A stretch of DNA of 21,117 bases from a virus. Position numbers and translations under genes: made by a program. Shown piece by piece: positions 1 through 19,239 of this stretch (position 1 is the first letter of the stretch; the number at the start of each line of letters is the position of its first letter). The DNA lies in IMG/VR virus record IMGVR_UViG_3300032087_002275, positions 1 through 21,117 of that record; one strand, 5' to 3'. The notes under the pieces were generated by a model, which saw nothing but the letters and a program-made list of their open reading frames with translations, was not told where the DNA came from and ran no database searches.

Positions 1-1974
1 CGTTTTGTCGATTATTTGTTGTTTTGCGATCTGGAATTGCTGAGTCGATTCTGTTGAATTGACTACAGTGTTCACATCTTCTTCTGTACTGGTGAGGCTG
101 TTCTGAGAAGCTTGCAGATCCTTTAATACCTGACTGTTAGCTTCTAGCTCATCCCCAATGGCTTGTTCTTGTGCCAGTAACTCATCACGCTGTTTAGCAA
201 CGTCTTCAGGCATCTCTTTGCCATCGTATTGAGCTTCTAACTCCTCTATTTGCGTGCCGATCTCTTCGCCACGATCACGAACTGCTATAAGCGCTTGCTT
301 AGCGGCTGTGACAAGTTTAGCGCCCTCCTCTAGATTGACTTCGCCGCCTTCCTCAGAAGGTTGTGTTACCGTTTTGTGACGGTCGGCAATTCTAGAGATC
401 ACATCTGAAACTTCAAACGTAGAGGTATTTTCGTCTTCAGAAGTAGAATTTCGAGTCTGCACTGGTACTTTAGTATCAATTGACTCATCAATGGCTTTGT
501 CCAGTTCAGCATTCTTAGTTTCTTGTGCCGCTTTCTCAGCAGCAGCTTTGACAGCCTCTTGCTGCAGTGGCTCAACAACTTTTTTCTTAACCGTGTCTCC
601 AGCTGCGCCCAGTACTGAGCCAGGTACGGGAGTCATACCACCAGCTGCTGCGCCAATCACTGCGCCCTGATAGACTTCACCGCCATCTATCTCATCCAGT
701 GACTTACCTTCAGCCAACTGCTCAAGTCCAGTTTGAACGCCTTCAGTGACGCCCTCTGTAGCACCTGCAGTAGCAGGTTTAACCGTACGTCCCAGTAGAG
801 CCTTTTTAAGCGACTGTGTGCCTGTATTGGCTTTACCTTTAACCAATCCAGCGGCTTTAAGTAACGCAGCATCAGCGACCATTTCTACGCCAGCAGCTGC
901 CATTGAAGCCATAAACATTTGACCCGTCTCTTCTTTAGACGGTAACTGACCATCATTCTCTAGGCGGTATGCATCAATACCACGACGGAACGTATCAAAA
1001 CCGTAAGCTGCGTTTGTTGTCGCTAAAGAAGCTTTACCGAATAAACCAGACAGTAACTGAGGCGCGTTCTCAACAGCGTATTCAAGTGAAGCGCCTGGGT
1101 TGTTAGCAATCGTACCAATACCGTCTACGATCAAGTTACCAACCGCTTGAGCCGCTTCCAGTGTGGTTGCGTCTTCAGAGAAGCCCTGCTTATTCACGTT
1201 CCATGCAGTGCTAAGTTCATCGACCATGTCATTACGACTAGAGTCATTGAAGATGCCCGAGACAAACGTATCTTCCATGAAGAACTTATCAATCTCAGAC
1301 GCAGCATCATTGGCTTTAACCGCTGCTTGTAGCTTAGAGCGGTAAGTCGTTGGATTACCGTTAACGCCTTCTGTACCTAAGCCTTCGAAACCAGAAAGAT
1401 CTGGGCCTTCGTCTTGTGAGACAACGACATCCAGTAGTGCGTTCTCAGCGTCAGTCAGTGATGGGATTTCTGCTTCACGAGCATCGAGGAATGCCATGCG
1501 ATCTTCATACTCTTTTGCAGTAATCGATCCCATGATGTTGTCTGCCATTGCCAGACGACGTTGACGAGCTAATTCGCGGGTAGCGCCATCAATGCCCATT
1601 TGTTTGTTGAAGCTTTTGATCGCTTCTTCAGGGACGCCACTAATTTCCCAAGCCGAGGCAATGTTGGCAGGTATCTGAACCAACTGGCTTAAGGTACGTG
1701 GAATACCGATCTCAACTGCAGCAGCAACAGAGTTTGCAACCGTTCCACCAAACGTATTTAAATTATCATCCGTTACCCACGCATCTGATTCACGCACCGC
1801 CTGATTATATTGGCGCTGACGAATCGCTTCGGCATTTTGGATAATGGCTTCTTGTTTAGAAAGAGGATTAACTCGCTGAGTTAATATATTTTGTTTTTCA
1901 GTTGAAGCAGTATTAACTGCATCTTCTTTTGTTGGTGGGGTAATTAAAGGTGAGTAAGGATTGTTGCTGCTCAT
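1..1974 (-). CDS. Giant internal virion (ejection) protein, N-terminal 658 residues, partial
   Basis: The frame is open from an ATG at 1974 to the window edge with no stop, so at least 658 codons and the C-terminus is outside. GAGGA lies about 10 nt before the ATG. The sequence is Ala/Gly/Glu-rich and helical. Around residues 400-415 it has an EGVTEGVQ-type motif, followed near 435-458 by a Gly/Ala-rich hydrophobic patch (GAVIGAAAGG...), then a long charged coiled coil at about 555-650. This order (helical N-terminus, EG.QEG..Q motif, glycine-rich patch) is what I remember from the N-terminal domain of the N4 virion RNA polymerase and from other giant ejected phage proteins. It is the last gene of the head operon and follows two smaller probable ejection proteins, as in T7 14-15-16 or N4 52-51-50. 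It probably leaves the capsid with the DNA. Whether a polymerase, transglycosylase or other enzyme domain follows cannot be seen here. Confidence 0.75.
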   Translation of the reverse strand, partial: MSSNNPYSPLITPPTKEDAVNTASTEKQNILTQRVNPLSKQEAIIQNAEAIRQRQYNQAVRESDAWVTDDNLNTFGGTVANSVAAAVEIGIPRTLSQLVQIPANIASAWEISGVPEEAIKSFNKQMGIDGATRELARQRRLAMADNIMGSITAKEYEDRMAFLDAREAEIPSLTDAENALLDVVVSQDEGPDLSGFEGLGTEGVNGNPTTYRSKLQAAVKANDAASEIDKFFMEDTFVSGIFNDSSRNDMVDELSTAWNVNKQGFSEDATTLEAAQAVGNLIVDGIGTIANNPGASLEYAVENAPQLLSGLFGKASLATTNAAYGFDTFRRGIDAYRLENDGQLPSKEETGQMFMASMAAAGVEMVADAALLKAAGLVKGKANTGTQSLKKALLGRTVKPATAGATEGVTEGVQTGLEQLAEGKSLDEIDGGEVYQGAVIGAAAGGMTPVPGSVLGAAGDTVKKKVVEPLQQEAVKAAAEKAAQETKNAELDKAIDESIDTKVPVQTRNSTSEDENTSTFEVSDVISRIADRHKTVTQPSEEGGEVNLEEGAKLVTAAKQALIAVRDRGEEIGTQIEELEAQYDGKEMPEDVAKQRDELLAQEQAIGDELEANSQVLKDLQASQNSLTSTEEDVNTVVNSTESTQQFQIAKQQIIDKT

Positions 1975-3910: not shown

Positions 3911-6226
3911 TTATTCGTAAGTTGGCTGCGGTAACTGCAGCATTATGTCTGCGTAATTATTCATCATCGTATAACCCAATAAACCAGGATTAGTATTATG
4001 AATAGTTCGCTCATAATAGTTAGATGGATACTCGTTAAAGTTTATCATTGGTTCCGAATAAACAAACTCCATTGGGTCTATTAATCCGTCAACCGCTAAT
4101 AATTCCTGCGCTTCTTTTAATGCATCTAGGCTTTCTTTATATTCTTCTTGGAATACATCAAAGTCATTTTGTAAATCTTTAAATGCATCGCCAAGGTTTG
4201 CAGATATTCCCTGACTTAATCCAGACGCCGTCTGTAATAAAACATCAGCCCATGCCGCATTATCAATATTCCATCCAGAAACTGATAACTGGTAAATAGC
4301 AATTGCCGCTGCAATGATTGCCACAATAAATGAGTTTTCAATACCCAGTGCTTTAACTAAGTATTTGAAACCAACTGATATCACATACGAGATCACAATG
4401 GCTTCAATCAGCATCATTAATGCAGCGTTATACGCCCCGTTAGCAAGAGCTGTAGCAAACGCAGCACCGCCACCTGTGTAGATCACCAACGCAATAGCAG
4501 CGATCTGAAGCAGGGTTTTAAATAACCCCGTCTGGTACCACTTAACCTTAGTGACTTTGTAAGAGTTAAATACGATCTGTAGTGCGTCGTAGTAGAGAGA
4601 GTTGCGTTTGAGTGCACCCATCTGGTCAACAATGTCACTGTGAAGTGGAATCACAAAGTTGTTGTTATCTTCTGATTGAGCATCAGCCAGATCAGTTACA
4701 ACAGTGTGCCCTTGATAAACGTAGTTGGTTAAGACTGGGTTGTAGACCTTAATACGTTTGTACGTGTTCTCACTTATCTGCAATCGAAACTCTACGTAGG
4801 TGTCGTAAAAGTCACGCGCAGCGTCAGCGGTAGCGTGAGCGGTAGCGTGAGCTTTGCCCGACACCACTTCTACTTCAATATTGCTCCACGCAATACGCAG
4901 ATCCAGTACAGAGTCTTGAACTTTAAAGCCACCATTAGCGGATGAGCCAGTATCATCAACGTACTGTCCGTACATGCGATCCCAGAAGCGAGCCAAGTAT
5001 TCAATAGCCGCTTCCGTCTCTGTATTAAGGCGCGTACCGAACATCAGAATGGCATGGTCAATCTCACCGACATCGGGGTTTTCGTTAATAGCCTCCCGTA
5101 AGTCTTGGATGTTGATCCCAATTTTCTTCAGTAGCTTATTACTAGTAATGTACAAATCTGTATCAAAACGGCTCTCTGAACAAAGATCTACATTGTGTCT
5201 ACGTAGTGGAACCACTGGGTAAAACGGTGAGCTATTGCCGGTATAGGTTTGGAATGCCAACTGTGGGTACAGCGCATCGTCTACACGGTACAACCATATT
5301 TTGCGCTCCCCTGACTCCGTCTGGTACGCCGCAAAATAGTAGTAATCATTTAAGATAACTTCTTTAGTGAATGACTCAGTATCTGTCCACGCATCATCAT
5401 ACGTCTGGGTTACGTTAGCCTCAGTGTAAGACGATTGGGACGTTGTAATGGACGGCTCATCTACCGTTGGATCAAGACCGTATGTCCACGTCTCTAGCGT
5501 TTCAATACGTTCAATCGTATAGCCGTTAATGTAGCTAACGCGACGCGTGTAATTCACATCTGACGTAAACGAAGCAATGCCAGTTTCAACGTCATAGTCA
5601 GCTGTCACATCACCTAATATAGCTTTGAAGCTATATTCAGTAGTGGTTGGAAATAGTTGTGATGAAGATTGATACGTAACAGAGCGTCTCCACTGAACGC
5701 CATTCCCGTATGTCCCGGTGGTAGGTGTCTCGTCTTCAGGAGTTGCTGCGGCACGCGTTTCGTTAACGTAGTCCCTAAACTCGTTGTAACGCGCAATACC
5801 GATTTCTGAATCATTACCATTAGGATTGTGGATTACATCTGTATCGTAATCCCATCCAAGGTTTTGGTAGAGCCAATCCATGTGATGAAAACTGAGATCA
5901 GCGTAATCAAGGCGTGTCTCAGAGACAGTAACGCCCTCACCTTCTACCGCTTCAATGACAGCCTCTACGACATCAAGATCGTAGTTAAACGACTCTGTGT
6001 AGCCTTGCGGTAAGCCAAGAGTGTAGTTATCCCGAGCATAGCGATACGCTCGACGAATCTTAATTCCTGCACCGTCTAACATATCCTGTACCAGGCGCTC
6101 AGTTAGATTGTCACCGTTACGGATGACATGCAGCATTGATTTGGTTAATAGCTGTGGCTCAACACCAATCAGTGGCGTCGAGGTTGAACTAACGGAAATC
6201 TTCTTTTTGGAACGGAATAAACCCAT
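3911..6226 (-). CDS. Large virion protein with a C-terminal membrane-like block
   Basis: 771 aa from the ATG at 6226; a TTG two codons upstream (6232) is less likely. Numbering from the TTG, residues 1-160 are mixed helical, 175-300 are Thr/Ser/Tyr-rich and look beta-structured, 330-550 are mixed, 568-650 hold about three long hydrophobic Ala/Ile/Gly-rich segments, and 675-710 are a charged coiled coil. It lies between the coiled-coil 332-aa protein and the ejection trio. Length and slot suit N4 gp53; T7 gp12 (794 aa, tail nozzle) has a similar slot, but a membrane block is not expected in a nozzle. It is most simply a virion protein that inserts in the host envelope during DNA entry. The ATG has no Shine-Dalgarno: a terminator hairpin and its T-run end just 4 nt before it. 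Codons are less biased than in the capsid gene. Function unrecognised. Confidence 0.6.
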   Translation of the reverse strand: MGLFRSKKKISVSSTSTPLIGVEPQLLTKSMLHVIRNGDNLTERLVQDMLDGAGIKIRRAYRYARDNYTLGLPQGYTESFNYDLDVVEAVIEAVEGEGVTVSETRLDYADLSFHHMDWLYQNLGWDYDTDVIHNPNGNDSEIGIARYNEFRDYVNETRAAATPEDETPTTGTYGNGVQWRRSVTYQSSSQLFPTTTEYSFKAILGDVTADYDVETGIASFTSDVNYTRRVSYINGYTIERIETLETWTYGLDPTVDEPSITTSQSSYTEANVTQTYDDAWTDTESFTKEVILNDYYYFAAYQTESGERKIWLYRVDDALYPQLAFQTYTGNSSPFYPVVPLRRHNVDLCSESRFDTDLYITSNKLLKKIGINIQDLREAINENPDVGEIDHAILMFGTRLNTETEAAIEYLARFWDRMYGQYVDDTGSSANGGFKVQDSVLDLRIAWSNIEVEVVSGKAHATAHATADAARDFYDTYVEFRLQISENTYKRIKVYNPVLTNYVYQGHTVVTDLADAQSEDNNNFVIPLHSDIVDQMGALKRNSLYYDALQIVFNSYKVTKVKWYQTGLFKTLLQIAAIALVIYTGGGAAFATALANGAYNAALMMLIEAIVISYVISVGFKYLVKALGIENSFIVAIIAAAIAIYQLSVSGWNIDNAAWADVLLQTASGLSQGISANLGDAFKDLQNDFDVFQEEYKESLDALKEAQELLAVDGLIDPMEFVYSEPMINFNEYPSNYYERTIHNTNPGLLGYTMMNNYADIMLQLPQPTYE
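4821..4856. repeat. Three imperfect 12-bp tandem units inside the 771-aa gene
   Basis: Units gcgtcagcggta, gcgtgagcggta and gcgtgagctttg follow each other directly. The middle unit differs from the first by one base. In the protein they give a short Ala-His-Ala-Thr repeat near residues 461-470. It looks like recent replication slippage that kept the frame. Confidence 0.8.
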
Positions 6227-6283: not shown

Positions 6284-7282
6284 TTAGACTACGCCAATGC
6301 CTGTTTTAGCTTTTTGAACAACACGTTGGATCTCAGAATCTGCAAGACCAGCACCCGCTGGTGAGATACCTTCGTCCGTAGTGCGCTGTACAGACCACAC
6401 ATCGACCATAAGCTTCGCAAGCTTCTGTTCTGCATCACGTGCAAAGCCATCTGTCTGAGCAGCGTACAGAGCTTTCTGCTTACCAAGAACACCACTCACT
6501 GTGATGCCATCAACCATGTCAGCTGTCTGTGCAATCTCTGTCTTACGACGTTGATCCAACACTTCAACTTCTTTGTTGATCTTGGCAATAGCTGCTTGGA
6601 TCTGAGCTTCATCTGCAGTGACTTTAGCGGCAGTGGCTGTCAGTACATTCACGTTAGCAGTAGACGCCGCTGCATCAGCGTTAGTCTTAGCTGTCTGAGC
6701 ATCAATCAATAGACCCTGCTTGGGAATGTTCAGCCCTTCAGCTGTTGCATTCAGGCGCTGTTGCTCAACCATCAGAGTCTCTTCTTGGATCTTCTGATCT
6801 TGGTATTGCAACGTGTTGATCTCACCCTGAAGCTTGATACCTTCCAGAGGAATGATCGTACCTTGTAGCTTAAGGTTGGCTTCTTGACGCTCAGTAAGAT
6901 CAATATCGGCTGCAAGCTTGTCAGTCTGCTTAGCGGTTAACTGAACTTCTTCGTCCAGTTTCAAACCAACTTTGATAAGGTTCTTACCCTCTGTCGCAAG
7001 GTTAGCCAGTTGCTGTGCAACAACGGCTTCTTCACGACGAGTCTTATCAGTTTGTGCTTCAAGCAAGGTAGCCTGAGCTGCTGATTGATCGGCGGTTAGT
7101 GCGTATTGGATCGACTGCTGCAGCACTGCATTCATCGTACCCAAATACAAATTGGCGTAGTCTTCACCGGAGAAGCGATTCTTTTTGTACTCTTCATTGA
7201 GGTGCTCTTTAGCAGCCCTCATGAGTACATCAAATACGCCTTTACCGTTGAGCGTGCCTTCAGTTACTGCAGTAATCGACAT
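6284..7282 (-). CDS. Coiled-coil virion structural protein (N4 gp54 position)
   Basis: A 332-aa protein almost free of aromatic residues after residue 60. Residues 1-60 include 'EEYKKNRFSGEDYANLYLGTMN' style sequence followed by LQQSIQYAL; residues 65-260 are a very long helix rich in Gln, Ala, Thr, Leu and Lys with repeated short 'LQG', 'AQT' and 'TAD' themes. This composition, and the 'G.DYA.LYLG' stretch, are what I associate with N4 gp54-like structural proteins found next to the capsid gene. AGGAG is well placed before the ATG inside the end of the previous gene. It probably forms part of the inner portal/ejection assembly; alternatives are a tail adaptor or ring protein. No enzyme motif is seen. 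Confidence 0.6.
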   Translation of the reverse strand: MSITAVTEGTLNGKGVFDVLMRAAKEHLNEEYKKNRFSGEDYANLYLGTMNAVLQQSIQYALTADQSAAQATLLEAQTDKTRREEAVVAQQLANLATEGKNLIKVGLKLDEEVQLTAKQTDKLAADIDLTERQEANLKLQGTIIPLEGIKLQGEINTLQYQDQKIQEETLMVEQQRLNATAEGLNIPKQGLLIDAQTAKTNADAAASTANVNVLTATAAKVTADEAQIQAAIAKINKEVEVLDQRRKTEIAQTADMVDGITVSGVLGKQKALYAAQTDGFARDAEQKLAKLMVDVWSVQRTTDEGISPAGAGLADSEIQRVVQKAKTGIGVV

Positions 7283-7285
7283 ACG

Positions 7286-7834
7286 TTACTCCTGATCGAT
7301 TGCGCCAGCCATTGCCTGTTGCTGAGCCAAGTCTTTAAGCTCTTGCTCAGTTAGTGGCGGTAGGATCTCAACGCTGAACTCTTTAATCATCTTGCCTTTG
7401 CGCATCTTGTTACCACGTGGTCCGTTAACGGTAGTAAACACCTGACACTTACGTGCTTGGATCGCTTCAAGAATGATGTGCGGTACATGCCACTCAACAC
7501 CGAATGGGACGTACTTACGGAATGTGCCCACAACTGAGTTAGAGACTGTGAAGATCTCACCTTCCCACTCTTTTTTGTTTGGGTTCATGTTAGTGATACG
7601 TAGACGTACCAACTTGCCAGCTTCTTTCTGCATGCGCTGGCGACGTTGCCCAGGAGTCTCGCGTTTAGCTTCAGGCTTTTCTGGAACAACTTCAGCAACC
7701 GCTTCTGCAATAGAGTCAGCAGAGCGAGCTTCTTCGATCTTTGCGATCAACTTTTCACGACCAATTGCTGGGTGGTACTTAAGTCCCATCTCATCAGCAA
7801 GAATCTTTAGATCATCTAGGGAAATATCAGACAT
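7286..7834 (-). CDS. HeH/LEM-domain head protein (N4 gp55 position)
   Basis: A 182-aa protein with three parts. Residues 3-38 (SLDDLKILADEMGLKYHPAIG...LIAKI) have the helix-extended-helix pattern of HeH/LEM or Rho N-terminal-like domains, often nucleic-acid or protein binding. Residues 40-70 are a charged linker with a basic cluster (PGQRRQRMQKEAGK). Residues 72-165 are a compact, basic, beta-rich domain. It directly follows the major capsid gene, a slot often used for head-completion, decoration or connector proteins; T7 gp11 (tail adaptor, 196 aa) occupies the equivalent slot. I do not recognise the C-terminal domain, so the exact role is open. Confidence 0.6.
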   Translation of the reverse strand: MSDISLDDLKILADEMGLKYHPAIGREKLIAKIEEARSADSIAEAVAEVVPEKPEAKRETPGQRRQRMQKEAGKLVRLRITNMNPNKKEWEGEIFTVSNSVVGTFRKYVPFGVEWHVPHIILEAIQARKCQVFTTVNGPRGNKMRKGKMIKEFSVEILPPLTEQELKDLAQQQAMAGAIDQE

Positions 7835-7908: not shown

Positions 7909-9075
7909 TTAAAGTACTGCAGCAGTTTTAACTACAGCCAGACGCTCTGGACGTAGGATAAGTGAACCGTAGTACCACTTGATGCTCATGAAGCCAGTTT
8001 CGCCGTATGGATCGTTACGATCTGCAGTAGCTTCACCTGGTTTCTTGTGAGTGATCTTGAACTTCACTGATTTACCGTCAGTCTGGAAACCGATAGTAGT
8101 GAATGAACCATCACCAACAACAAGCATTGGGAATACGTCAACGTTACCGTTAGTTTCGTAAGAAGTACCAGCAGAAGCGACGTCGCCTTCACCAGCCCAC
8201 TTCATCATCTCTGGAACTACAACGATGCGGAACTGATCGATAGAACCAACTTCACCAGTAACAGTGTTACCGCCAGCAGCGTACTGCTGAACTGGAACGA
8301 ATGCTGGGTTACCGTGTAGATCAGTCATTGCACGTAGAGTTGGAAGAAGTTCCGAACCAACGTAGATGATGCGAGCAGCAGCGATAGTCTTAGTATCAAC
8401 TAGACGAGTACCAGTGATAACTTTAGTACCTTTAGGAGTACGGTTGTTATCTAGGTCGATTGCTAGACGCATAAGGTCGTCGTAAGTTACAACGTCTGCT
8501 TCACCAACAGTAGCGTTAGAAGTCGCAGCACCTGCGTAACGTACAACACCAGCACCGTTTAGAAGGTCGATCTGTAGAGCATCTTCAGTGATTTCAGATG
8601 CGCCGTTAACCATCTCACGAGCAACGTGCATTTCAAGCTCTGCATCAGAGTCGAAGTCTAGAGACTCTTGAGTGTACTCATCGAAGAAACCGAATTTCTC
8701 GATAGAACCTTCAAGTTCAAGACGCTTGAAGCCAACGCGGTTAACACGACCACCGTTCTCAGAAAGAGCTGGCATCTTACCTGCGATAGTACCGATGTCT
8801 TTAGATGAACCGTAAAGGTTACCGTCAGCAATCGCTACACCGTTAGCGTCGATACCCTGGTCGTTGACGTTGCGATCGTCAAGTAGAGGCATGTAGTGGA
8901 AAAGCTTGATGGTTTTACCCATGTGCTTAGGCATAGCAGTTACGTCAGCTAGCTGAGAGAAGTACTGTTCCTTCTTAGCTTCGATAAGTGCTTTTTTGTA
9001 AAAGTAATCAGTACGTAGCTGACCACCGATAGATGAATTAGATCCACCAATTGGATCGTTGTATGACTGTGCCAT
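7909..9075 (-). CDS. Major capsid protein, N4-gp56-like
   Basis: A 388-aa protein with the N-terminal signature of the N4-gp56 capsid family: '[33 protein letters not shown]' at about residues 38-80, then '[15 protein letters not shown]' and a C-terminal '[24 protein letters not shown]'. It is expected to adopt the HK97 fold and to form the icosahedral shell. The acidic scaffold gene directly precedes it. AAGGAG sits at ideal spacing before the ATG. Codon use is the most biased in the window (Asn AAC, Ile ATC, Phe TTC, Tyr TAC, Gly GGT, Leu CTT/CTA), as expected for the most abundant virion protein. The assignment is by motif memory and gene order. Confidence 0.88.
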
Positions 9076-9093: not shown

Positions 9094-10278
9094 TTAGAGA
9101 AACTTGCTTGCAACTAATTTGTCGAACTCATCATCCGACATGCTTAATGGGTTAAAGTCTGATTCTTTCGCGCTAGAGGTTGGTGCCGTTTTGGTTGGGG
9201 CTGCCGCTTTCTTGCGATTGACGACTTTAGGATCAGCTTGTTTCTTAGGTTTAGGAGAAGGTTTGGCAGGTTCTTTCACCGCGTTTTGCTGTGCGAATCC
9301 GCCTTGCGCAAATATCCTGTCACCAATTTCACGGTACGCCTCAATATCAGACATTCCGTTTAGCCGACCTAGTGCTCGCTCCTTCGTCATTACAGCGTCA
9401 ATCTGAGCATAAATGCCGTTAGACATGTGCTCGTTTATCACCTGAATCACTTGGGGGTTTTGCACGATGATTTTGCGACTTGCTTCATCCCACTTATTGC
9501 TGATGAGATCGACAGTCTTGCCATAGGTATCGGTGTGCTGAATGCCTTCAAGTACCGAATCTAGTTCAATCTCTCGCTCATCCACAGTGTAAGACTGGGG
9601 TTTGTAGCTCGTCTTATCAGAGGTATCTATATCAAGCGGGTCGATGCCACTTTCCTTGATAAGATTACGAATAGCATCTGGATTCTTCTTATCCAGATCT
9701 ATGAGGTAATTTAGCTTAGATTCTTCGAGTAAACTATTGTTTTCCAACATCTTCAACAATTTCATGTGGGGTTTTAAGCCAGACATCTTTTTGCTGTAGT
9801 TGGCGCCCATCTGCATGAGCTGAATCGCTTCGTCTACTGAATCTACTTTGATCTCTTTACCGTTCGCTTTAAACGGAGCCAAGATCTTCATGTACTCAGC
9901 TTTGTAGTCGATACCGTCATCAGTATCAGCATCATCTGAGTCTTGTTCTTCCTCAGCGTCTTCTACAGACTCTGCAGGTTCTCCTGAACCATCAAATACA
10001 TCGGGACCACCGTCTATTTCAGACGATTCAGGATCAGCATCGGTATCACCGCTGTCATCAGTATCAGGAGTTGAATCATCAGTATCTTCTGGCACATCGT
10101 CTTCAGGTGCCTCATCTGTTTCGTTGTTATCTACCGCATCGTCACCTTCAGCATCCGAGGGCTCAGCGCCCTCTTCTGCTTCAGTGCCGCTGGGAATATC
10201 GTTGAGATCCATGTTCATGATCTCTTCGTCTGATAACTCTAGAAAGCTATCGTCATTCTTCAGCAGCTCATCACTCAT
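9094..10278 (-). CDS. Capsid scaffolding protein
   Basis: A 394-aa protein with strong charge segregation. Residues 10-123 are almost entirely Asp, Glu, Ser, Thr and Pro; residues 125-330 are helical and include 'APFKANGKEIKVDSVDEAIQ' and 'LMQMGANYSKKM', a segment I know from podovirus scaffold proteins; residues 336-365 are Lys/Pro/Ala-rich; the C-terminus (380-394) is a short amphipathic helix. Scaffolds of P22 and T7 bind the capsid protein through a C-terminal helix, so the last residues are the likely coat-binding part. Its ATG overlaps the stop of the 114-aa gene (ATGA), with GAGGAG upstream, and it ends 18 bp before the capsid gene. The very acidic N-terminus is unusually long. Confidence 0.82.
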   Translation of the reverse strand: MSDELLKNDDSFLELSDEEIMNMDLNDIPSGTEAEEGAEPSDAEGDDAVDNNETDEAPEDDVPEDTDDSTPDTDDSGDTDADPESSEIDGGPDVFDGSGEPAESVEDAEEEQDSDDADTDDGIDYKAEYMKILAPFKANGKEIKVDSVDEAIQLMQMGANYSKKMSGLKPHMKLLKMLENNSLLEESKLNYLIDLDKKNPDAIRNLIKESGIDPLDIDTSDKTSYKPQSYTVDEREIELDSVLEGIQHTDTYGKTVDLISNKWDEASRKIIVQNPQVIQVINEHMSNGIYAQIDAVMTKERALGRLNGMSDIEAYREIGDRIFAQGGFAQQNAVKEPAKPSPKPKKQADPKVVNRKKAAAPTKTAPTSSAKESDFNPLSMSDDEFDKLVASKFL

Positions 10279-10619
10279 GCATCAAGCTCCTCAGCCAACA
10301 TCTCTTCACGGGTAGCTTCGTCATCAGCAATGGCTTTCTCTGCCATACGACCCATCTGCATAACCGTAGATAGGTACTGACGAACTGTACCGATTGCATC
10401 CATCTGCTTAACGATAAGCGCTTGGCTCTCTTCGTCTTGCATGTTTGGATCAGCTTTTAGTGTGACTAGACGGACTGGCTCTTTCTCGAAGTAGCCTTCT
10501 AGGAACAGGGCTTTGAAGTCACGGTTACGGGTAAGTCGATCCAAAGACTTCATTAGATCAACAGACTTCTTAGCGTGCTTAATAGAGAGTTCGATCGTTT
10601 CAAGATCATGTTGTGACAT
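10275..10619 (-). CDS. Small helical protein between portal and scaffold (N4 gp58 position)
   Basis: A 114-aa soluble, helical protein. It contains 'LDRLTRNRDFKALFLEGYFEKEPVRLVTL' at about residues 25-53 and a helix 'MDAIGTVRQYLSTVMQMGRMAEKAI' at 73-97. I recognise this layout from small proteins encoded between portal and scaffold genes in N4-like and marine podoviruses, but I know of no assigned function; a portal- or scaffold-associated assembly factor is the simplest guess. AGAGGA precedes the ATG, and the stop overlaps the scaffold start by 4 nt, so translation is probably coupled. Confidence 0.65.
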   Translation of the reverse strand: MSQHDLETIELSIKHAKKSVDLMKSLDRLTRNRDFKALFLEGYFEKEPVRLVTLKADPNMQDEESQALIVKQMDAIGTVRQYLSTVMQMGRMAEKAIADDEATREEMLAEELDA

Positions 10620-10685: not shown

Positions 10686-12824
10686 TTATTGAGGTGTTGC
10701 AGTTTTGTCGTTCAGCGAGGCTTTCACGACTTCAAGCTTAGCGTTGGCTTTTGCTTGTTCTCCTAGCTTCTGTAGATCACGTTCCTGCTTAACGCCAGAC
10801 TCCTGCTCTACAAAGTTCAGATTCTTCAGATCGGTATCAGACTGGATGTTGCCAGACTTAACCTGTTCAGTACCTGCCTTAGCTTGATCCAACATAGCGC
10901 CAGCCTGGTTCTCCATAGCACGGCTCTGTAGTTCTGCGATCTCAGCCTGTAGCTTAGCCATCTCTAGCTGCTGTAGCTGTACTTGCATTGGATCAGGTTG
11001 TGGCTGGTACTCTTCAATACTTTTAGCCAGATCAGGCATCTTACGTAGACGGGCAATGTCAGCAAGGATCATACGAGACATCGCTGGATCCATGTTGTTA
11101 CCCATTGTCTGAAGCATAAATGCCAGTTCTTGTGCTTTAGCGTTGTCTTCTTCAGCCGTTGAGATCGAGAGACGTAGATCGAAGTTACCGGCAAGATCGT
11201 CACGACGAATGGTGACAAACTCTTCGTTAGTAATACGAACCACTTCCTCTTCAGAGAGGAACTCAGCGTTCATCGCAATGAACTTACGACCAATCTGGAT
11301 GATGCCATCTGCTAGACGACGTAGGATGCCTAGCTCACGTTTAGAGGCTGCATCGAGTGCACCTCGTACGCCTGTTGCAGTATCTCCCAACGCCTGACCA
11401 CTGATACCATTATTAAACGCCTTAACACCAGTCAGTGATTCTGCATCTGCATTCTGGAGCTGCAGCATAACTTGCGCAGAGTTAGGGATTTCTGGATAGG
11501 TATGCATGAAGATTGCTTGGCGAGGATCAACGTTCGCATTGAACTCATAATCCATGCCTTGATCGAAGCGGCGCTTGTTGGTTAAGTCGAGGGCGTCTTT
11601 ACGCACGCCAGTCTGACCATTTGCGCTCTTACCCATGATATCAATCATGCCACGGGTAACGGCTCCGAGAATCTTCTGGTTATCTTCCAGTAGTTCCCCA
11701 TCAGGCTGTCCGTAGAGGCTCTTACGGACTGGGAGATACGGTACAACTACAAACGGTAGTTGTTGATCTGGGAATGGGTTCTCTTCAAGGCGAATCAATA
11801 CATCACCTGCCCATGCAGCAACGATGGGTTGAACCACACCGCTACCATCAATGTCCCAGAAACCCCAATACTCATGAACCATGAATTTCTTACGTGGTTC
11901 GTCATTGAAGTTAAATGCGCTGTTGTCTTCAGAGACGTGATCAGGATTACCCAGAATTGAGCTGTTAGTAATCTTAATCGCCTCTAAGTTCTTGTACTTA
12001 CCGTCACGACGTAACTCGTCCAGTGAGGTTTCAAAGGTGTACACCGCAAAACGTGCTTTAGTCATATCACCACCACAAGATGGATCAATCACAACGTTTC
12101 GGTAATCACAGATCTCTAGAGTGGGTTGGTTCCGAACAGGTACGACTTCCGTAACCTGTTCTTCCCCAGACTCTACAGGTACAAGCACTTGACCATTCTC
12201 GATAGAAAGCTGGAGGGCTTCCTGGATTTCGGATGGCACCTGCTGTGCAAAAGCTTCAGGATTGCTCTGAAGAAGTTGAGCCAGCTGCTGATACTGGTTA
12301 GCGATGGTGGGATCATTTGCAGGGACAAAGTCGTAGATAGTCTCAGTACGAGTCACTTCGCGCTCTTCGTAATCCCATCCGACTCTGACAATAACCGTAC
12401 CTTCATCAACCGCAGTACGAACGTACTCGTCAATGAACTTGGTCTTTTCGATCTTAGTATTGAATTGGTTGTTGAGAACCAACTGGTTTTGTTGAGCAGC
12501 CTTCTTATCTTCCCAACTCACTGGGTAGACGTTATACACATCTGGAGTTGATAGGAATGGCTCACTCAAAGCCGAGTATCTCCACTCAGCCTGTTTGCGA
12601 ATCAGTTTAGGTTGAATGCTCGACTTACCTTTTTGGTATTGCTGACGAGCCGAACCTTTGACGTGTAAGTTATCAAGCCAACGATTAACGTCAGATACGT
12701 GAGAATCTGTTTCGTTCTTCGCATCAGAGTAATCTTGTTTAAGCTCAGCAACTGAAGGTTCGTTTTCCCAGTCGGTAAGCTTTTCAAGACTTGTCTGCAT
12801 ATATTGCATATCTGCGTCTTTCAT
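10686..12824 (-). CDS. Portal protein
   Basis: A 712-aa protein of typical size for N4/P22-type portals. Residues 45-110 contain 'DNLHVKGSARQQYQKGKSS' and 'IRKQAEWRYSALSEPFLST', the start of the portal core in this family as I remember it; then 'VGWDYEE', 'DYRNVVIDPSCGGDMTKARF' and 'LLEDNQKILGAVTRGMIDIMG' (the long core helix). Residues 607-712 form a Gln/Ala/Lys-rich coiled coil, likely the barrel or a long C-terminal helix inside the head. It would form the dodecameric ring at one vertex through which DNA is packaged and ejected. It is the first gene of the head operon, preceded by a regulatory gap. A 4-codon upstream ORF overlaps its start. Confidence 0.88.
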   Translation of the reverse strand: MKDADMQYMQTSLEKLTDWENEPSVAELKQDYSDAKNETDSHVSDVNRWLDNLHVKGSARQQYQKGKSSIQPKLIRKQAEWRYSALSEPFLSTPDVYNVYPVSWEDKKAAQQNQLVLNNQFNTKIEKTKFIDEYVRTAVDEGTVIVRVGWDYEEREVTRTETIYDFVPANDPTIANQYQQLAQLLQSNPEAFAQQVPSEIQEALQLSIENGQVLVPVESGEEQVTEVVPVRNQPTLEICDYRNVVIDPSCGGDMTKARFAVYTFETSLDELRRDGKYKNLEAIKITNSSILGNPDHVSEDNSAFNFNDEPRKKFMVHEYWGFWDIDGSGVVQPIVAAWAGDVLIRLEENPFPDQQLPFVVVPYLPVRKSLYGQPDGELLEDNQKILGAVTRGMIDIMGKSANGQTGVRKDALDLTNKRRFDQGMDYEFNANVDPRQAIFMHTYPEIPNSAQVMLQLQNADAESLTGVKAFNNGISGQALGDTATGVRGALDAASKRELGILRRLADGIIQIGRKFIAMNAEFLSEEEVVRITNEEFVTIRRDDLAGNFDLRLSISTAEEDNAKAQELAFMLQTMGNNMDPAMSRMILADIARLRKMPDLAKSIEEYQPQPDPMQVQLQQLEMAKLQAEIAELQSRAMENQAGAMLDQAKAGTEQVKSGNIQSDTDLKNLNFVEQESGVKQERDLQKLGEQAKANAKLEVVKASLNDKTATPQ

Positions 12825-13010: not shown

Positions 13011-14201
13011 TTAAATTAAATGCGATGGCGCTATAAGTTCTTCTTCATATTCCCAAGGACGTTGGAACGCATAAAATAAAATCTTCGTTGCAACACCGTG
13101 TTCGAATATCACCGAACCTGCATTTATTTGTAATAACTCACCGTTCTCTCCAAGATTATAATGACGTACTCGGTAACGCCCATTACCTGAATCTAATTCA
13201 GCAGCAATAGTGTCGTTTACTGGCGACGGTAAATTATAGTACTGAGCCACTGCATTTAATTGTTCACTGGATTGAGCATTAAAATAAACCTCAGCAAACT
13301 CTTCAGGTAAACCATAATGAGAGCGTGCGTACCATATACCACCTAAATCAGTTAAGTCGTGTTCCTCTTCAAAATAAATACCTTTATCAGAGAAGGAACC
13401 TAATACACTGTAAACCAGCTTAGAGGGTTCAAAGACACGCTTTTTACCGTTAGATTCAAAACCTGCCCAAGCAATAAACGGGTTATCTGACTCAGCATCA
13501 TGAAAACGGTACTGAGTACGTACACCATCTGCACGGCGTGAACGAATACGCACTTCCGTCATGTCAGACATGCGCCCGTTGTGATCACTACCTGGCGTCA
13601 CAATGCCACCGCATAACCGTTTAAAGTAACCACCCTCTTCCCAGACTTTACCGCCTTGGTAGTAGGCTGTACCTTTCATCCACAAATCCCAAGCACCGAT
13701 GTCTTTTGGATAAGTGTAAAGCTTCAAATACGTCGGTGAGCCATCAACATACTTAACCGCACCAACCACAACAGGACGTCCTTCAACGTTGTACATGGCG
13801 ATGGTTTCAGGTGCTGTATCGATAACTTGATCAAGCTCAGGCGTGCTAGGGTTTGCTAAACCATAAAACTCTGAAATGCTTTGCAGTGCTTCAGCGTTAT
13901 CAATTGCAAAGAAGAGATCGAAGTTCTGATCGTCCCACTTCTCTTTAACCGCTACGCACAACCACAATGTGACAGCTGGCGCTAATGGATAATGTTCCAG
14001 CTCTGCTGCTGGTACATCACTGGATGGGTAAAACGCTTTAAACTGTTCCGTTACCCAATACCGTTTACCGTCATTCTTCACTTGATTAAAGATGGGATCG
14101 GCTTCAGGATCAAAAGTGTACTCCTGCATTAATTGGTTATGGGTCTTCTCTTTGTAGATGTCACCACCGTTGTGGTACACCACTTCATGAAACTTAGGCA
14201 T
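13011..14201 (-). CDS. Tail-fibre operon protein with a diverged internal duplication
   Basis: A 396-aa protein, rich in Tyr, Trp and Phe and probably beta-structured, without membrane segments. Two regions look like copies of each other: residues 94-172 and 302-385. They share 'A/S-E-x-L-x-x-I/V-x-x-[FY]-Y-[GN]-L' followed by a Pro/Ser turn, then 'x-Y-x-[VL]' strands and a final '[TF]-[YF]-x-x-P...W' segment. It is the last gene of the tail-fibre operon; its ATG overlaps the stop of the 319-aa gene by 8 nt. I do not recognise the family. From position it is probably a receptor-binding, tip or chaperone-like protein that completes the fibre. Confidence 0.55.
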   Translation of the reverse strand: MPKFHEVVYHNGGDIYKEKTHNQLMQEYTFDPEADPIFNQVKNDGKRYWVTEQFKAFYPSSDVPAAELEHYPLAPAVTLWLCVAVKEKWDDQNFDLFFAIDNAEALQSISEFYGLANPSTPELDQVIDTAPETIAMYNVEGRPVVVGAVKYVDGSPTYLKLYTYPKDIGAWDLWMKGTAYYQGGKVWEEGGYFKRLCGGIVTPGSDHNGRMSDMTEVRIRSRRADGVRTQYRFHDAESDNPFIAWAGFESNGKKRVFEPSKLVYSVLGSFSDKGIYFEEEHDLTDLGGIWYARSHYGLPEEFAEVYFNAQSSEQLNAVAQYYNLPSPVNDTIAAELDSGNGRYRVRHYNLGENGELLQINAGSVIFEHGVATKILFYAFQRPWEYEEELIAPSHLI

Positions 14202-15153
14202 CGTAGTGACTCGCGTTAATTAAGATGATGGGGTTTGTAGTCAAATTAATAGTTTTCTCGCTGTAAGGACGTGCACCTGATGTGTACGATTTACCGTCAC
14301 CACCAAACCAACCGCCACCCTCTGCACTCTGATTAAACGAGTAACCCGCACGAATAGTAGACCAACCGGCTGTTAGCTGTAGGTTTGGCTCTGTACCTTG
14401 TAAGCCATAGGCAGCGTGATACATAGCCCACCACCACGTGTACGCTCTGTGTTCCTGACATGAGCCGCCGTAACCACAGGACTTGTAATAACCCGAATAC
14501 ACATTATCGATTACGGATTCAGCAATAGACGGTGCTAAGAACGCTAAGTCTTCTCGTGCAGCATCGGCAATGTCGTAAGTATTAAACGTCGTGTCACAGT
14601 GATAGTCACCGTAACCATTAAGCCAACTGCTTTGGTTCCAGTTACCGTAACTGTAGTTACTTGGGGTTGTATCACATGGCATAGAAGGGGGAACTGCGAT
14701 CGCAACATCGTGGATTGCCATTGGTCTTCGCCCAGAATCAAACGCCACTTCACCGTTATCTAGAAACGTAACAAGACCCGTATCCGTCATAGGCGTAGTA
14801 ACGCCTGTTAACTGCGTAAAACAGTAAACACGTGGGTGCAGATATGTCGGACCGTGTTGCAAAATCTTAATGTACCAGTAACCTGCTTCGTACCAAGTTC
14901 TTAGTACACCGTAACGAGTCGTATGCGCCCCTGGGCGTATAAAGACGAGTGGCGACTGTTCATTGATTGCAGGTATTCGAAACGTGTACATACAGCGCCC
15001 TGACAATAAGCCATCACCGCCGTATCCCGTAAATGTTGTTAAGCCTGATTCATCGTTAGAGTGGAGGGCTGCTTCGCCCATGAAGTGAAATGAACGTATA
15101 TCCGAACTAACCAGTATATGGTTTTCGTCGTTACGCACCGAAATGCCGTACAT
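14194..15153 (-). CDS. Probable tail-tip / receptor-binding protein
   Basis: A 319-aa, aromatic- and Gly-rich, beta-type protein. Its start (MYGISVRNDENHILVSSD) and N-terminal half resemble, from memory, tail proteins that follow gpJ-like fibre genes (DUF6453-type), but this is weak. Residues 160-235 are Cys-, Tyr- and Gly-rich with a repeated CDTT (160-163, 186-189) and C226/C232 in a CGYGGSC stretch, which could bind metal or form disulfides in the virion. The C-terminus (270-319) is Gly/Ser-rich. AGGACG precedes the ATG; the start lies one base after the stop of the 94-aa gene. Its variable-looking, surface-type composition and position suggest host recognition. Confidence 0.55.
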   Translation of the reverse strand: MYGISVRNDENHILVSSDIRSFHFMGEAALHSNDESGLTTFTGYGGDGLLSGRCMYTFRIPAINEQSPLVFIRPGAHTTRYGVLRTWYEAGYWYIKILQHGPTYLHPRVYCFTQLTGVTTPMTDTGLVTFLDNGEVAFDSGRRPMAIHDVAIAVPPSMPCDTTPSNYSYGNWNQSSWLNGYGDYHCDTTFNTYDIADAAREDLAFLAPSIAESVIDNVYSGYYKSCGYGGSCQEHRAYTWWWAMYHAAYGLQGTEPNLQLTAGWSTIRAGYSFNQSAEGGGWFGGDGKSYTSGARPYSEKTINLTTNPIILINASHYDA

Positions 15154-15154
15154 A

Positions 15155-15439
15155 TTATCGTCCTAAAATTAGAATGGCTGTTGAGATAGCCCCACCAGTC
15201 GCAGTGATTGTGTCGCCCGAACGGGTCACAGTGTGTACATAGTTCTCTTGACCACCCCAAAGAGCATCAAGCAACTGAGTACTGATTAGAATGTCTGTAA
15301 AATTATTCATCTCAGGCACTGACCAACTGGCATTAGCACCTTCAGGAGCCACTAAGTACTTTACAAAGTTCCAAGTGGTTTTAGAGGTGTCGAAGTACGA
15401 CACCCCCTGATCATTGAGTAACTGTAAGCCTTGAGCCAT
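15155..15439 (-). CDS. Small tail-fibre operon protein
   Basis: A 94-aa protein with no signal or membrane segment: a mixed N-terminal part (residues 1-60, Trp/Phe/Asn-rich) and a short beta-like C-terminus 'HTVTRSGDTITATGGAIST' at 68-86. The start codon shares one base with the stop of the 532-aa fibre gene (TAATG), so the two are likely translated together. It probably caps or joins the fibre to the next tip protein; no family recognised. Confidence 0.55.
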   Translation of the reverse strand: MAQGLQLLNDQGVSYFDTSKTTWNFVKYLVAPEGANASWSVPEMNNFTDILISTQLLDALWGGQENYVHTVTRSGDTITATGGAISTAILILGR

Positions 15440-17037
15440 TACAGATCTCCTAGCTTCACACGCAAGTTACCTGAAGCGTCAAACACTTTAAGACAGTTGT
15501 TGTTTAGATCGATCACAAAGCGCCCTGTTGTGTTTGCCATGTAACCTGCTGTGATAGAGCCCATGTCTGCTCGAATCGCTGAGAGCGTGTCTGCAGAGAT
15601 CTTAGAGGCATCCAATGACTCAATAGACGCTGAACCAATCGATGCATCTTTAATGTACGCACCATCGATCATAGTGACGCCATTAGATGTACCAAATACA
15701 AGATTACTGCTGTCTGGGTCGTAGACTTCAAAGTTATCCGCTTCAATGGCAAACGTAGACGTCTCACCATCGTTCATTAAACCAATACCAGCAACACGCC
15801 CGTTAACGTCTGTCTTCACAGCGTACTCAGCTTGTAGACCATCTACTGCGGCTGTCAGGGTCGATACAGAAGCTGTATTACCGTTCAATGCCGTTGTGTA
15901 GTTGGTAACGGTTTGAGCCAATGCACTCACTTCACTGGCACGTGTTGCTGACTCAGACGTAATCGCCGCATTCACATCTGTGATTGCCGTATTCAACGTA
16001 GACTGTAGTGAGTTCAGCAAGCTTGCGAGTGAGCTGTCTTCTGAAACACGTAGCTCTGCTTCGTTACTGATGGCTGATGTCAGTGACTGTACCGACGTAT
16101 TCAAGGATGCCGTCAGTGCGGTAATGTCACTTGAGACAGAGGCAATATCCGTTGTACGAGCCAAGGCTTCCGCTTCAATAGCAGCCGCACGTGCCTGTGC
16201 TTCTGTAATCAGATCTGCACTTACCGTGTTGATGTTCTCAGCTGTCACAGACAACGCGTTAGCACGCAATGTCTGCTCCGCTTCGATCGCTGCAATACGA
16301 GAGGCTTCTTCGTTACTTAACGCTGACTCTAGTGCTTCAATCTGGTTTAAGAACGATGTTTCGTTCGTTGCTAGTGCTTGAACCTGTTCAACAATCTGTG
16401 CACGTATAGCAGCGTCTTCCGCTTCCAGTTCTGCTCGCAGAGTATTGATCTGAGTGACCAGGCTTGCCAAGTTACTCAAACCTGATAAGTCGATGTTCAT
16501 CTCTTCAATACTGGCTTGAAGCGATAGTAGCGTCTCATCTGTCGCATCAGAGATCAGCTCTTGGATTGCTGAAATGATTGACGGCGATAGGTTCGCATCT
16601 GTTAGTGCAGTGCCCAGTGCCTGAGCTAAGCGGTGTGGGTTGTTACCGCTGGTAGCAGTGACTGAATCACTCAGTACCCCTACTTCGTTGTTAAAACCAA
16701 CAGGACGAAGCCAGTAGTAATACGTAACCCCTGCATCAACAGAGTCGTTGTACGCAGTGGATTTAGATGTCCCAACTAATATCGCAGTATTTGGGTCATC
16801 AGATTCTGAACGGTAAACCTCAGTGTAGTCGTGATCCAATGCTTCAGACTGGGTCCAAAGAATCTGGATCTGTGACATGCCTTCAATGACAGCAATACTA
16901 TTGATGGTGGCATCAGTAGCATCTGTTTTGGTAAATGGGTTCGATGAGCTTTGTGAATACTTCATACCCATTGTTGGGTCGAAGATCTGAATTACTTCAT
17001 TTTCTTTCTGAACCAACTCAATAGTATTGTCAGCCAT
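15439..17037 (-). CDS. Tail fibre with FN3-like domain, coiled-coil shaft and gpJ-like (DUF1983) domain
   Basis: A 532-aa protein. Residues 42-132 have the pattern of a fibronectin type III domain (IQILWTQSEALDHDYTEVYR...YYYWLRPVG). Residues 135-395 are a long Ala/Ser/Thr/Glu/Leu shaft with repeated heptads, certainly helical and probably trimeric. Residues 410-480 contain 'VNGRVAGIGLMNDGETSTF', 'IEADNFEVYD' and 'IDGAYIKDASIGSASIE', the hallmark of the DUF1983 region of lambda host-specificity protein J. The last 20 residues are a short beta end (FDASGNLRVKLGDL). It would be a central or side fibre extending from the tail. It stops soon after the gpJ-like domain, so receptor binding probably lies in the downstream proteins. 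GAGGT precedes the ATG, 2 nt after the upstream stop. Confidence 0.75.
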   Translation of the reverse strand: MADNTIELVQKENEVIQIFDPTMGMKYSQSSSNPFTKTDATDATINSIAVIEGMSQIQILWTQSEALDHDYTEVYRSESDDPNTAILVGTSKSTAYNDSVDAGVTYYYWLRPVGFNNEVGVLSDSVTATSGNNPHRLAQALGTALTDANLSPSIISAIQELISDATDETLLSLQASIEEMNIDLSGLSNLASLVTQINTLRAELEAEDAAIRAQIVEQVQALATNETSFLNQIEALESALSNEEASRIAAIEAEQTLRANALSVTAENINTVSADLITEAQARAAAIEAEALARTTDIASVSSDITALTASLNTSVQSLTSAISNEAELRVSEDSSLASLLNSLQSTLNTAITDVNAAITSESATRASEVSALAQTVTNYTTALNGNTASVSTLTAAVDGLQAEYAVKTDVNGRVAGIGLMNDGETSTFAIEADNFEVYDPDSSNLVFGTSNGVTMIDGAYIKDASIGSASIESLDASKISADTLSAIRADMGSITAGYMANTTGRFVIDLNNNCLKVFDASGNLRVKLGDL

Positions 17038-17039
17038 TA

Positions 17040-17375
17040 TTAACCTCGAACAATGTTTTGTTGAATTACAGCTTCGCCGTCTACGATATTAGTTTTAATA
17101 CCGTCGCTTTGAATAAGCTGAACCCCATAAATAAATGTCTCTTCCAAAACATTATCTAAAACATCAGCTGTATCAGCTGGAACCAGTGCTATTTTAATTT
17201 CGCCCTCTGGACCACTAATAACAGCGCCGCGTTCTATTAATACAGGCGAGTACATGCTTCGTCTTAAAACAAATTTAGCACTTGCGCCTGATAAATCTAC
17301 GGGAAAGCCATCACCATCTTTATAAACGAGCTTGAGAATGTAATGGTTATCTGCCGTAATAGTTAATCTACTCAT
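17040..17375 (-). CDS. Small beta-sandwich fibre/baseplate adaptor-like protein
   Basis: A 111-aa protein with alternating beta strands: 'ADNHYILKLVYKDGDGFPVDLSGASAKFVLRR' (8-39), 'GEIKIALVPADTADV' and 'TFIYGVQLIQSDG...VDGEAVIQQNIVRG'. This is the pattern of small Ig-like domains found at the N-terminus of BppU-like baseplate and fibre-attachment proteins. It is the first gene of the tail-fibre operon, 2 bp before the 532-aa fibre gene, which supports a role in attaching the fibre. AAAGG lies about 11 nt before the ATG. It shares an AT-rich divergent promoter gap with phoH. Confidence 0.6.
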   Translation of the reverse strand: MSRLTITADNHYILKLVYKDGDGFPVDLSGASAKFVLRRSMYSPVLIERGAVISGPEGEIKIALVPADTADVLDNVLEETFIYGVQLIQSDGIKTNIVDGEAVIQQNIVRG

Positions 17376-17468: not shown

Positions 17469-18185
17469 ATGGGTAAAACCTCAAGAAAAGCACCAACTCG
17501 CCATGAAAAGGCAGAGAGTGCTTGGCAACCAGCTGCTCCACTTGAACCATTAAATCAAATACAGTCTGAATATATTCAATGTATTAAATCTTCACCCATA
17601 ACATTTGCGACAGGATATCCTGGTACTTCTAAAACATATATTCCCACCCGAATAGCCTCTCTCTGGCTAAAACAAAATGCGATCTCAAACATTATATTAA
17701 TGCGCCCAGCTGTCTCAGCTTCTAAATCCGTTGGTTTTGCTAAGGGATCTCATGAAGAGAAGATGCGTCATTGGCTCCGTCCAGTGTTAGGTGCACTACA
17801 ACAAGAGTTCTCGCATGGTCAGTTGAGCTACATGCTTAAAGAAGAGATTCAAATGCTGGACTTTGTACCGCTGGAAAACGTCAAAGGTAACAGCTGGGAT
17901 AACGCATTCATCATCGTGGACGAGGCAGAAGACTGCACGATGGCTGAACTCAAATCGATTGTTACCCGCGTGGGTAAAAACTCGACGCTCGTACTGTGTG
18001 GCGATGTTGCACAGTGTGATCTTCAAAACGGATCTGGCTTACGTCAGTTCCTCAACATACGTGAAAACTCGCCTCGCTTAATGCGAACGATTCAACACGT
18101 TGATTTCAATGACTTCGAAGACATCGTCCGCAGTGACGTGTGTAAGGAGTTGGTCAAAGGCTTTGCAGAAGTAGGACTTATATAA
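17469..18185 (+). CDS. phoH: PhoH-like P-loop ATPase
   Basis: A 238-aa protein with a complete PhoH core. Walker A is GYPGTSKT at residues 49-56 (usual form GPAGTGKT), Walker B is IIVDEAED at 148-155 (usual DEAQN), and sensor I is LCGDVAQCDL at about 176-185. 'LMRPAV' (77-82) and 'GSHEEKM' also match the family. Bacterial PhoH is associated with phosphate starvation; phage PhoH proteins are common in marine phages and may act on RNA, but their role is not settled. The N-terminal 20 residues are basic and look disordered. It starts the plus-strand operon, with AAGGA about 10 nt before the ATG, and its stop is followed at once by the glutaredoxin ATG. The GTSKT and DEAED variants keep the catalytic Lys and Asp/Glu. 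Confidence 0.9.
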   Translation: MGKTSRKAPTRHEKAESAWQPAAPLEPLNQIQSEYIQCIKSSPITFATGYPGTSKTYIPTRIASLWLKQNAISNIILMRPAVSASKSVGFAKGSHEEKMRHWLRPVLGALQQEFSHGQLSYMLKEEIQMLDFVPLENVKGNSWDNAFIIVDEAEDCTMAELKSIVTRVGKNSTLVLCGDVAQCDLQNGSGLRQFLNIRENSPRLMRTIQHVDFNDFEDIVRSDVCKELVKGFAEVGLI

Positions 18186-18416
18186 ATGCACGTAACTATT
18201 TACGGATCAAAAACATGCACTTGGTGCGAACAAGCTAAACAATTGTGTAACCGTTCATTTGTCTCATACGACTATATCGATCTGACAGCAGAAGGTAACG
18301 AACAGTTGTTGCACGAATTCAAAGGTAAAGGTTACACCACCGTACCTCAAATCTTTGAAGGTGAACGTCACATAGGAGGCTTTCAGGAACTTCACAAAGA
18401 ATTGGGAGGTGTCTAG
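18186..18416 (+). CDS. Glutaredoxin
   Basis: A 76-aa protein with the glutaredoxin fold in order: beta strand, active site C11-T-W-C14, TVPQIF with the cis-proline P54, and G64-G65 (HIGGFQEL) for glutathione binding. The dithiol CxxC form suits electron transfer to a ribonucleotide reductase, which many marine podoviruses encode; none is visible in this window. The ATG follows the phoH stop with no gap, and GTAGGA lies upstream. The stop shares one base with the next GTG start. Confidence 0.92.
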   Translation: MHVTIYGSKTCTWCEQAKQLCNRSFVSYDYIDLTAEGNEQLLHEFKGKGYTTVPQIFEGERHIGGFQELHKELGGV

Positions 18417-18886
18417 TGAGTAACTTTACTGACGTATCTGAGCTAAACCATCTCATAGGTAATACTCAAGGTAATCCAAGCAATCCTGACTGGGACGCAC
18501 TCGCGTCTCAGCTAGAGCTTATTAAAGAAGAGTTTCAGGAGTTAATCCATGCCATTGAACAACATGATTTCACTGAAGTACGTGACGCAGTTGCAGACAT
18601 CCTCGTTACTACTTATGGGTTGGCATACCGTGCTGGTGTTAACGCCGATGCAGATATGGATGAAGTCCATGCATCGAATATGAGCAAGTTTTGTAGCACT
18701 CGTGAGGAAGCCATCCACACAGCGCACAAATACGAGAAGCTAGGCGTTATGTGTAGCTATCGTCAACCTGTACCAGGTATCACAGCGGTTGTCTCAGCCA
18801 GTGATCAAACAGGTAAGGACGGTAAGTTCTACCCAGAGGGCAAGCTTCTTAAATCCATAAACTTTAAGGAGCCAAAACTCTTATGA
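18416..18886 (+). CDS. MazG-like NTP pyrophosphohydrolase
   Basis: A 156-aa all-alpha NTP-PPase. The metal-binding motifs are EEFQE at residues 38-42 and DAVAD at 57-61, followed by the helix ILVTTYGLAYRAG. The C-terminal half (DADMDEVHASNMSKFCS and DGKFYPEGKLLKS) is the MazG-like/PRA-PH type seen in phage proteins. The enzyme would hydrolyse nucleoside triphosphates, perhaps non-canonical ones, or act on (p)ppGpp as suggested for phage MazG; substrate cannot be read from sequence. The start is GTG, with GGGAGG six bases upstream, overlapping the glutaredoxin stop by one base. The end overlaps the next ATG (ATGA). Confidence 0.85.
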   Translation: MSNFTDVSELNHLIGNTQGNPSNPDWDALASQLELIKEEFQELIHAIEQHDFTEVRDAVADILVTTYGLAYRAGVNADADMDEVHASNMSKFCSTREEAIHTAHKYEKLGVMCSYRQPVPGITAVVSASDQTGKDGKFYPEGKLLKSINFKEPKLL

Positions 18887-19239
18887 GCCTTAACGACTAC
18901 TTCGATCGTTCCGAGTTCGCATGTGAATGTGGATGTGGTTACGACACAGTAGACGCAGAGTTGTTGGAGGTGCTTACGATTGTTCGTGAGCACTTTGCAC
19001 ATCCTGTGTCGATCAACTCAGGGTGTCGCTGCCCTTCTCACAATGCTGCTATTAAAGGATCGCCTCGATCTCAGCATCAGTACGGTAGAGCGGCTGACAT
19101 TGTTGTAAAAGGTGTATCACCTGGTGTGGTGCATGATTACATTAACGCTAAGTTCCCTAACCAGTATGGCTTGGGACGTTACGAAACCTTTACCCATGTG
19201 GATACACGTGGATGGAAAGCTCGTTGGGAGGGAAAGTGA
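18883..19239 (+). CDS. M15-family peptidase, probable endolysin
   Basis: A 118-aa protein of the small M15A peptidase type. Zinc ligands appear as H65 and D72 in SQHQYGRAADI and H105 in FTHVDTRG. The N-terminus (FACECGCG..TVD..LLEVL) and 'INSGCRCPSHNAA' are standard for this family. Such enzymes cut peptide cross-links or stems of peptidoglycan (D-Ala-D-Ala or L-Ala-D-Glu bonds). No signal peptide or cell-wall-binding domain is present, so it needs the holin encoded next to reach the periplasm. The ATG overlaps the mazG-like stop (ATGA); the stop overlaps the holin start by one base. Confidence 0.9.
   Translation: MSLNDYFDRSEFACECGCGYDTVDAELLEVLTIVREHFAHPVSINSGCRCPSHNAAIKGSPRSQHQYGRAADIVVKGVSPGVVHDYINAKFPNQYGLGRYETFTHVDTRGWKARWEGK

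Follow-up and report, generated by a model that had tools for sequence, protein, structure and literature searches.

Genomes of the Schitoviridae measure 59-80 kb and hold three RNA polymerase genes, including those of RNAPII (gp15/gp16). A giant virion RNA polymerase (vRNAP) of about 3,500 aa is a hallmark of these phages (PMC7650795, PMC10654107), and IMG/VR has already yielded more than 3,000 vRNAP-associated proteins (PMC10654107). In the phages N4 and DEV, the gp52- and gp51-type proteins are the outer-membrane pore and the periplasmic tunnel for vRNAP passage (PMC12633501, PMC10925440), and the gp73/gp72/gp71 operon of DEV serves as the functional model for such a locus (PMC10925440).

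The window analysed here, 21,117 bases, is the full length of its record (G000), a fragment of an uncultivated virus. The ORF at its left edge almost certainly encodes the N-terminal domain of a virion-encapsidated RNA polymerase of the N4 type (a gp50 homologue) from an uncultivated Schitoviridae phage. What supports this assignment is homology and gene order, together with the catalytic residues and the predicted fold in a collinear relative. The identity of the ORF rests on relatives because the window does not reach the catalytic domain, the 658 codons covered here including no catalytic residue of the polymerase, and because the record has no bases to the left of position 1, the end of the gene was likewise read in relatives. 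A search with Pfam RNA_pol gave no match in the window, as expected with the polymerase domain outside it; the controls of that search were also silent.

The collinear relative, IMGVR_UViG_3300031976_000907 (L001/G001, hereafter L001), is an uncultivated contig of 71,350 bp whose two ends share a repeat of about 91 bases. It is collinear along most of the window, with a major capsid protein 95% and a portal 92% identical, and the two phages are probably different species. The ORF begins with ATG and continues for 658 codons with no stop, open at the contig edge as the earlier note had described; the "N-terminal third" that the note saw in it amounts to about one fifth, the protein of the relative having 3,354 aa and that of the window phage being expected at about 3,350 aa. 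All 658 residues align with the first 667 of the L001 protein at 65% identity. Over 657 aligned codons the frame is unbroken, dN is 0.27 against a saturating dS of 1.51, and the differences number 183, 123 and 340 at codon positions 1, 2 and 3, which indicates that the ORF is a real coding sequence under strong purifying selection. As the DNA of the two contigs is also collinear as far as window base 2, neither the frame nor the edge of the ORF resembles an artefact. Truncation or splitting of the vRNAP gene in the window phage is very unlikely; split genes do occur, both in the literature (pSb-1 and AD45-P1, PMC10654107) and among the relatives, where the vRNAP match of G005 (19935-27547) falls in two open frames and that of G032 (45410-56002) contains an internal TAA, but the 658 codons of the window are intact and under selection and the gene of L001 is intact.

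To the right of the ORF and on the same strand, the genes follow the gp59-58-57-56-55-54-53-52-51-gp50 order of N4 (Table 1), with the portal, capsid and structural gene order of the Schitoviridae. Assignments were made from PHROG matches, from the matches of N4 gp52-gp55 to the same families, and from the N4 map. The ORF thus sits in the gp50 slot, with the N4 gene order intact, and follows ejection genes of the gp52 and gp51 types, which bears out the earlier claims that a giant ORF sits where N4 encodes its virion RNA polymerase and that two smaller ejection proteins precede it. The 168-aa protein also matches solved pore proteins, namely an 'N4 gp52-like protein' (8vxq, E 4e-13) and the N4 16.5-kDa protein (9yf4, E 4e-7). 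The family of the 445-aa protein, phrog_6467, is matched as well by the genes in the gp51 slot of Littlefix and phi50-12; N4's own gp51 belongs to another PHROG, phrog_6126. The gp53-type gene has an ATG two codons in that gives MGLFRSKKK, the same as in L001, and contains a 12-bp tandem repeat of 2.8 copies at 4820-4852 (AGCGTGAGCGGT). Elsewhere in the window, a tail-fibre region at 13011-17375 (-) encodes a tail-tip/fibre protein of 532 aa that contains a Phage_Tail_Tip domain, followed by proteins of 319 aa (weak family match only) and 396 aa (no family match). A cassette on the opposite strand at 17469-19733 (+) encodes a PhoH-like ATPase, a glutaredoxin, a MazG-like pyrophosphohydrolase and an M15-type endolysin, the gene of the last being overlapped by that of a small protein.

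Table 1. Positions of the edge-cut ORF, its N-terminal elements and the neighbouring structural genes in the window.
Feature	Position	Strand	Evidence
gp50-type virion RNA polymerase gene, N-terminal 658 codons	1..1974	-	ORF; 65% identity to L001; Littlefix match; Foldseek; 3' end cut by contig edge
Glycine patch GAVIGAAAGGMTPVPGSVLG, residues 437-456, second arm of putative helical hairpin	607..666	-	Conservation; helix 431-447
GATEGVTEGVQTG run, residues 404-416, Gly at every fourth residue, contains EG..EG.Q	727..765	-	ORF translation; conservation; helix 389-421
Most hydrophobic stretch of N-terminal domain, residues 354-372	859..915	-	Kyte-Doolittle mean 1.52; model helix 347-374
gp51-type ejection protein (periplasmic tunnel), 445 aa	2048..3385	-	phrog_6467, E 1e-23
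gp52-type ejection protein (outer-membrane pore), 168 aa	3388..3894	-	phrog_2646, E 3e-29, also matched by N4 gp52
gp53-type protein (tail plug), 773 aa	3911..6232	-	phrog_2220, E 6e-143, same family as N4 gp53
gp54-type protein (tail tube)	6284..7282	-	phrog_2050, E 2e-64, same family as N4 gp54
gp55-type protein	7286..7834	-	phrog_2130, E 5e-62, same family as N4 gp55
Major capsid protein (gp56)	7909..9075	-	phrog_1357, E 1e-144
gp57-type protein	9094..10278	-	phrog_2120, E 5e-122
gp58-position small protein	10275..10619	-	phrog_2346, E 2e-34; position as in N4
Portal protein (gp59)	10686..12824	-	phrog_1216, E 9e-260; 60% identity to Schitoviridae portals

The intact L001 gene in the gp50 slot encodes a protein that is matched by phrog_2206 ('virion RNA polymerase') at E=0 over residues 107-3345 and by N4 vRNAP in the PDB at E 5e-63. 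Alignment with 15 reference vRNAPs (16 proteins with L001) places its catalytic positions at R1340 (TxxGR), D1480 (motif A), R1573, K1577 and Y1585 (motif B) and D1838 (motif C). R1340, D1480, R1573, K1577 and D1838 are invariant in an alignment of 40 polymerase domains, where they correspond to positions 381, 521, 614, 618 and 879 of the first sequence. The AlphaFold model of the L001 polymerase domain (pLDDT 83, pTM 0.82) has N4 mini-vRNAP as its closest Foldseek match (2po4, TM 0.75, E 3e-31), followed by mitochondrial and T7 RNAPs, and searching the PDB with a profile built from the 40 domains recovers the crystal structures of N4 mini-vRNAP at E 3e-67. The earlier proposal that the gene continues into a T7-like single-subunit polymerase is thus supported by way of L001, and we infer that the missing part in the window phage is like that of L001 and that the protein has a comparable role in virion packaging, injection and contact with the membrane. 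L001 also encodes homologues of both N4 RNAPII subunits (gp15 E 3e-34, gp16 E 1e-71), whose genes fall outside the genome section covered by the window, as well as a DNA polymerase, a primase and an SSB. A scan of L001 for N4-type hairpin promoters gave no convincing set; in N4 the same scan recovered AAGAAGC-TCC-GCTTCTT and AAGCTGC-TCC-GCAGCTT, which stand upstream of gp2 and gp15, respectively. The C1 region of the L001 protein contains an HExxH motif (HELMH, residues 2072-2076, L001:16214-16228), which aligns in most references; VBP47 has HEALY, and the motif is not aligned in JA-1 and phi50-12, which for phi50-12 may be a fault of the alignment since this protein has HEIVH at residue 1985. 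The motif was dropped as a candidate new protease, having already been described in the C1 domain of N4 (PMC12633501).

The 658 residues of the window themselves resemble vRNAPs. The vRNAP of Littlefix is their strongest isolate match (tblastn E 1e-18, 36-37% identity), that of phi50-12 matches at E 1e-8, and the top tblastn matches among those listed are mostly annotated as vRNAP. A structure model of the domain searched with Foldseek against a viral library has two vRNAPs as its only hits below 1e-3, with phi50-12 at the top; the corresponding search of the PDB found nothing. In the PHROG profile search the window domain by itself stays below threshold for phrog_2206, a family that is matched individually by 21 of the 23 N-terminal domains in its alignment. 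Direct comparison with N4's own N-terminal domain is not significant, and a profile-profile comparison between the N-terminal domains of the window lineage and of the N4 subgroup reaches E 0.05, with a C-terminal control at E 0.03. The resemblance to N4 gp50 suggested in the earlier note therefore stands as far as a vRNAP-like domain with family motifs is concerned and not as a direct likeness to the N4 domain; the link runs via Littlefix, phi50-12, LUZ7 and the 71-kb relative. Profile and fold searches alike find vRNAPs and no unrelated virion protein. An internal virion protein like T7 gp16 or a tape-measure protein, lacking a polymerase, would share the all-helical build of the N-terminal domain and its hydrophobic glycine hairpin, but T7 gp16 is absent from the profile and Foldseek matches of the domain, the best of which are vRNAPs, and the T7-like core is present in L001, so that this reading has a vanishingly small probability.

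The arrangement holds across the capsid relatives. Among 80 contigs that carry a related capsid gene, 33 extend 10 kb past that gene, and every one of the 33 has a giant ORF in the gp50 slot that runs off the locus: 32 directly, and L083 with extra genes that shift the giant ORF, which still reaches the edge. In none of these 33 testable relatives does the gene stop after only a few hundred codons, all 33 records match phrog_2206, and no different cargo was seen in the slot among them. The gp50 slot is accordingly a reliable guide for annotating partial N4-like contigs. These counts also bear on the reading in which the same delivery module carries another cargo, the N-terminal domain being common to large polyvalent virion proteins and the missing part being something other than a polymerase. 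Below the two vRNAPs, the Foldseek list includes a protein of phage PTXU04 with a polyvalent-protein domain (E 7e-3), and single N-terminal domains touch a tape-measure and a DarB-like PHROG (3e-4 to 4e-4), but a polymerase is carried by L001, whose portal and capsid are 92-95% identical, by 33/33 capsid relatives and by all 16 aligned proteins, which makes another cargo highly improbable.

Within the N-terminal domain of the vRNAP, the EG..EG.Q motif and the glycine patch named in the earlier note are both present and are signatures of the family. Among 23 aligned N-terminal domains, the motif (residues 407-414) keeps E407 in 19, E411 in 20 and Q414 in 21; E418 is kept in 22, and in the glycine patch G441 and G445 are kept in 19 and 20, respectively. 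The number of GxxxG motifs exceeds that of composition shuffles at p about 0.03. Motif and patch lie on two predicted helices (389-421 and 431-447) of a model of all 658 residues that is only moderately reliable, given its pLDDT of 70 and pTM of 0.50, and the most hydrophobic stretch (Table 1) is a candidate membrane-contacting helix. To our knowledge, the N-terminal domain of N4 vRNAP is not resolved in published N4 structures. That domain goes into nanodiscs and has predicted membrane helices at residues 224-278 (PMC12633501), a placement because of which a membrane role for the window hairpin is something we infer. The conserved glycine-zipper-like hairpin is plausibly an inner-membrane delivery element, and it is a concrete, testable candidate for the means by which a protein of 380 kDa engages that membrane. 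Window positions 505-894 (residues 361-490) match phrog_5880, a family of 661 aa and unknown function, at E 8e-6, and a PDB profile search with the N-terminal domains gave only a marginal match, covering the glycine region, to a Tse5 chain (E 0.03). From these two matches, the hairpin module may be common to other giant or injected proteins; it is rather unlikely, though conceivable, that it is a glycine-zipper element for inner-membrane translocation, similar in mechanism to those of T6SS effectors and tape-measure proteins (Tde1, PMC10240207), and that it recurs on giant virion proteins with other cargo in other phages.

The following account of packaging, ejection and transcription is carried over from published work on N4 and DEV. 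On infection, the proteins of the gp52 and gp51 types would form an outer-membrane pore and a periplasmic tunnel. The giant protein, packed in the head, would be ejected after these channel proteins and threaded through pore and tunnel, and its helical, glycine-rich N-terminal domain would then engage the inner membrane and anchor it there. The single-subunit polymerase domain could in turn use promoters on the incoming DNA to transcribe the early genes and so help to pull the DNA in.

Compared with known systems, N4 gp50 (YP_950528; PDB 2po4, 3c3l, 9pnq, 9pnr) occupies the same gene slot with flanking gp51/gp52, is of similar length to the L001 protein (3,500 vs 3,354 aa) and shares with it the catalytic residues, the predicted polymerase fold and the HExxH of the C1 region, but differs in an N-terminal domain too diverged for significant direct similarity and in an identity of about 13-20% by domain. 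The closest references in the polymerase-domain tree, in which Pseudomonas phage DEV is not placed, are the Vibrio phages phi50-12 and vB_VhaP_PG11 (support 86/98 and 87/81), which are only about 25-30% identical in this domain and joined by long branches. The Pseudomonas phages Littlefix and LUZ7 fall on a different branch of the tree. The lineage of the window is diverged and has no close isolate, but its injected polymerase is of a known kind; the finding adds a diverged lineage to this class and is ordinary for its family.
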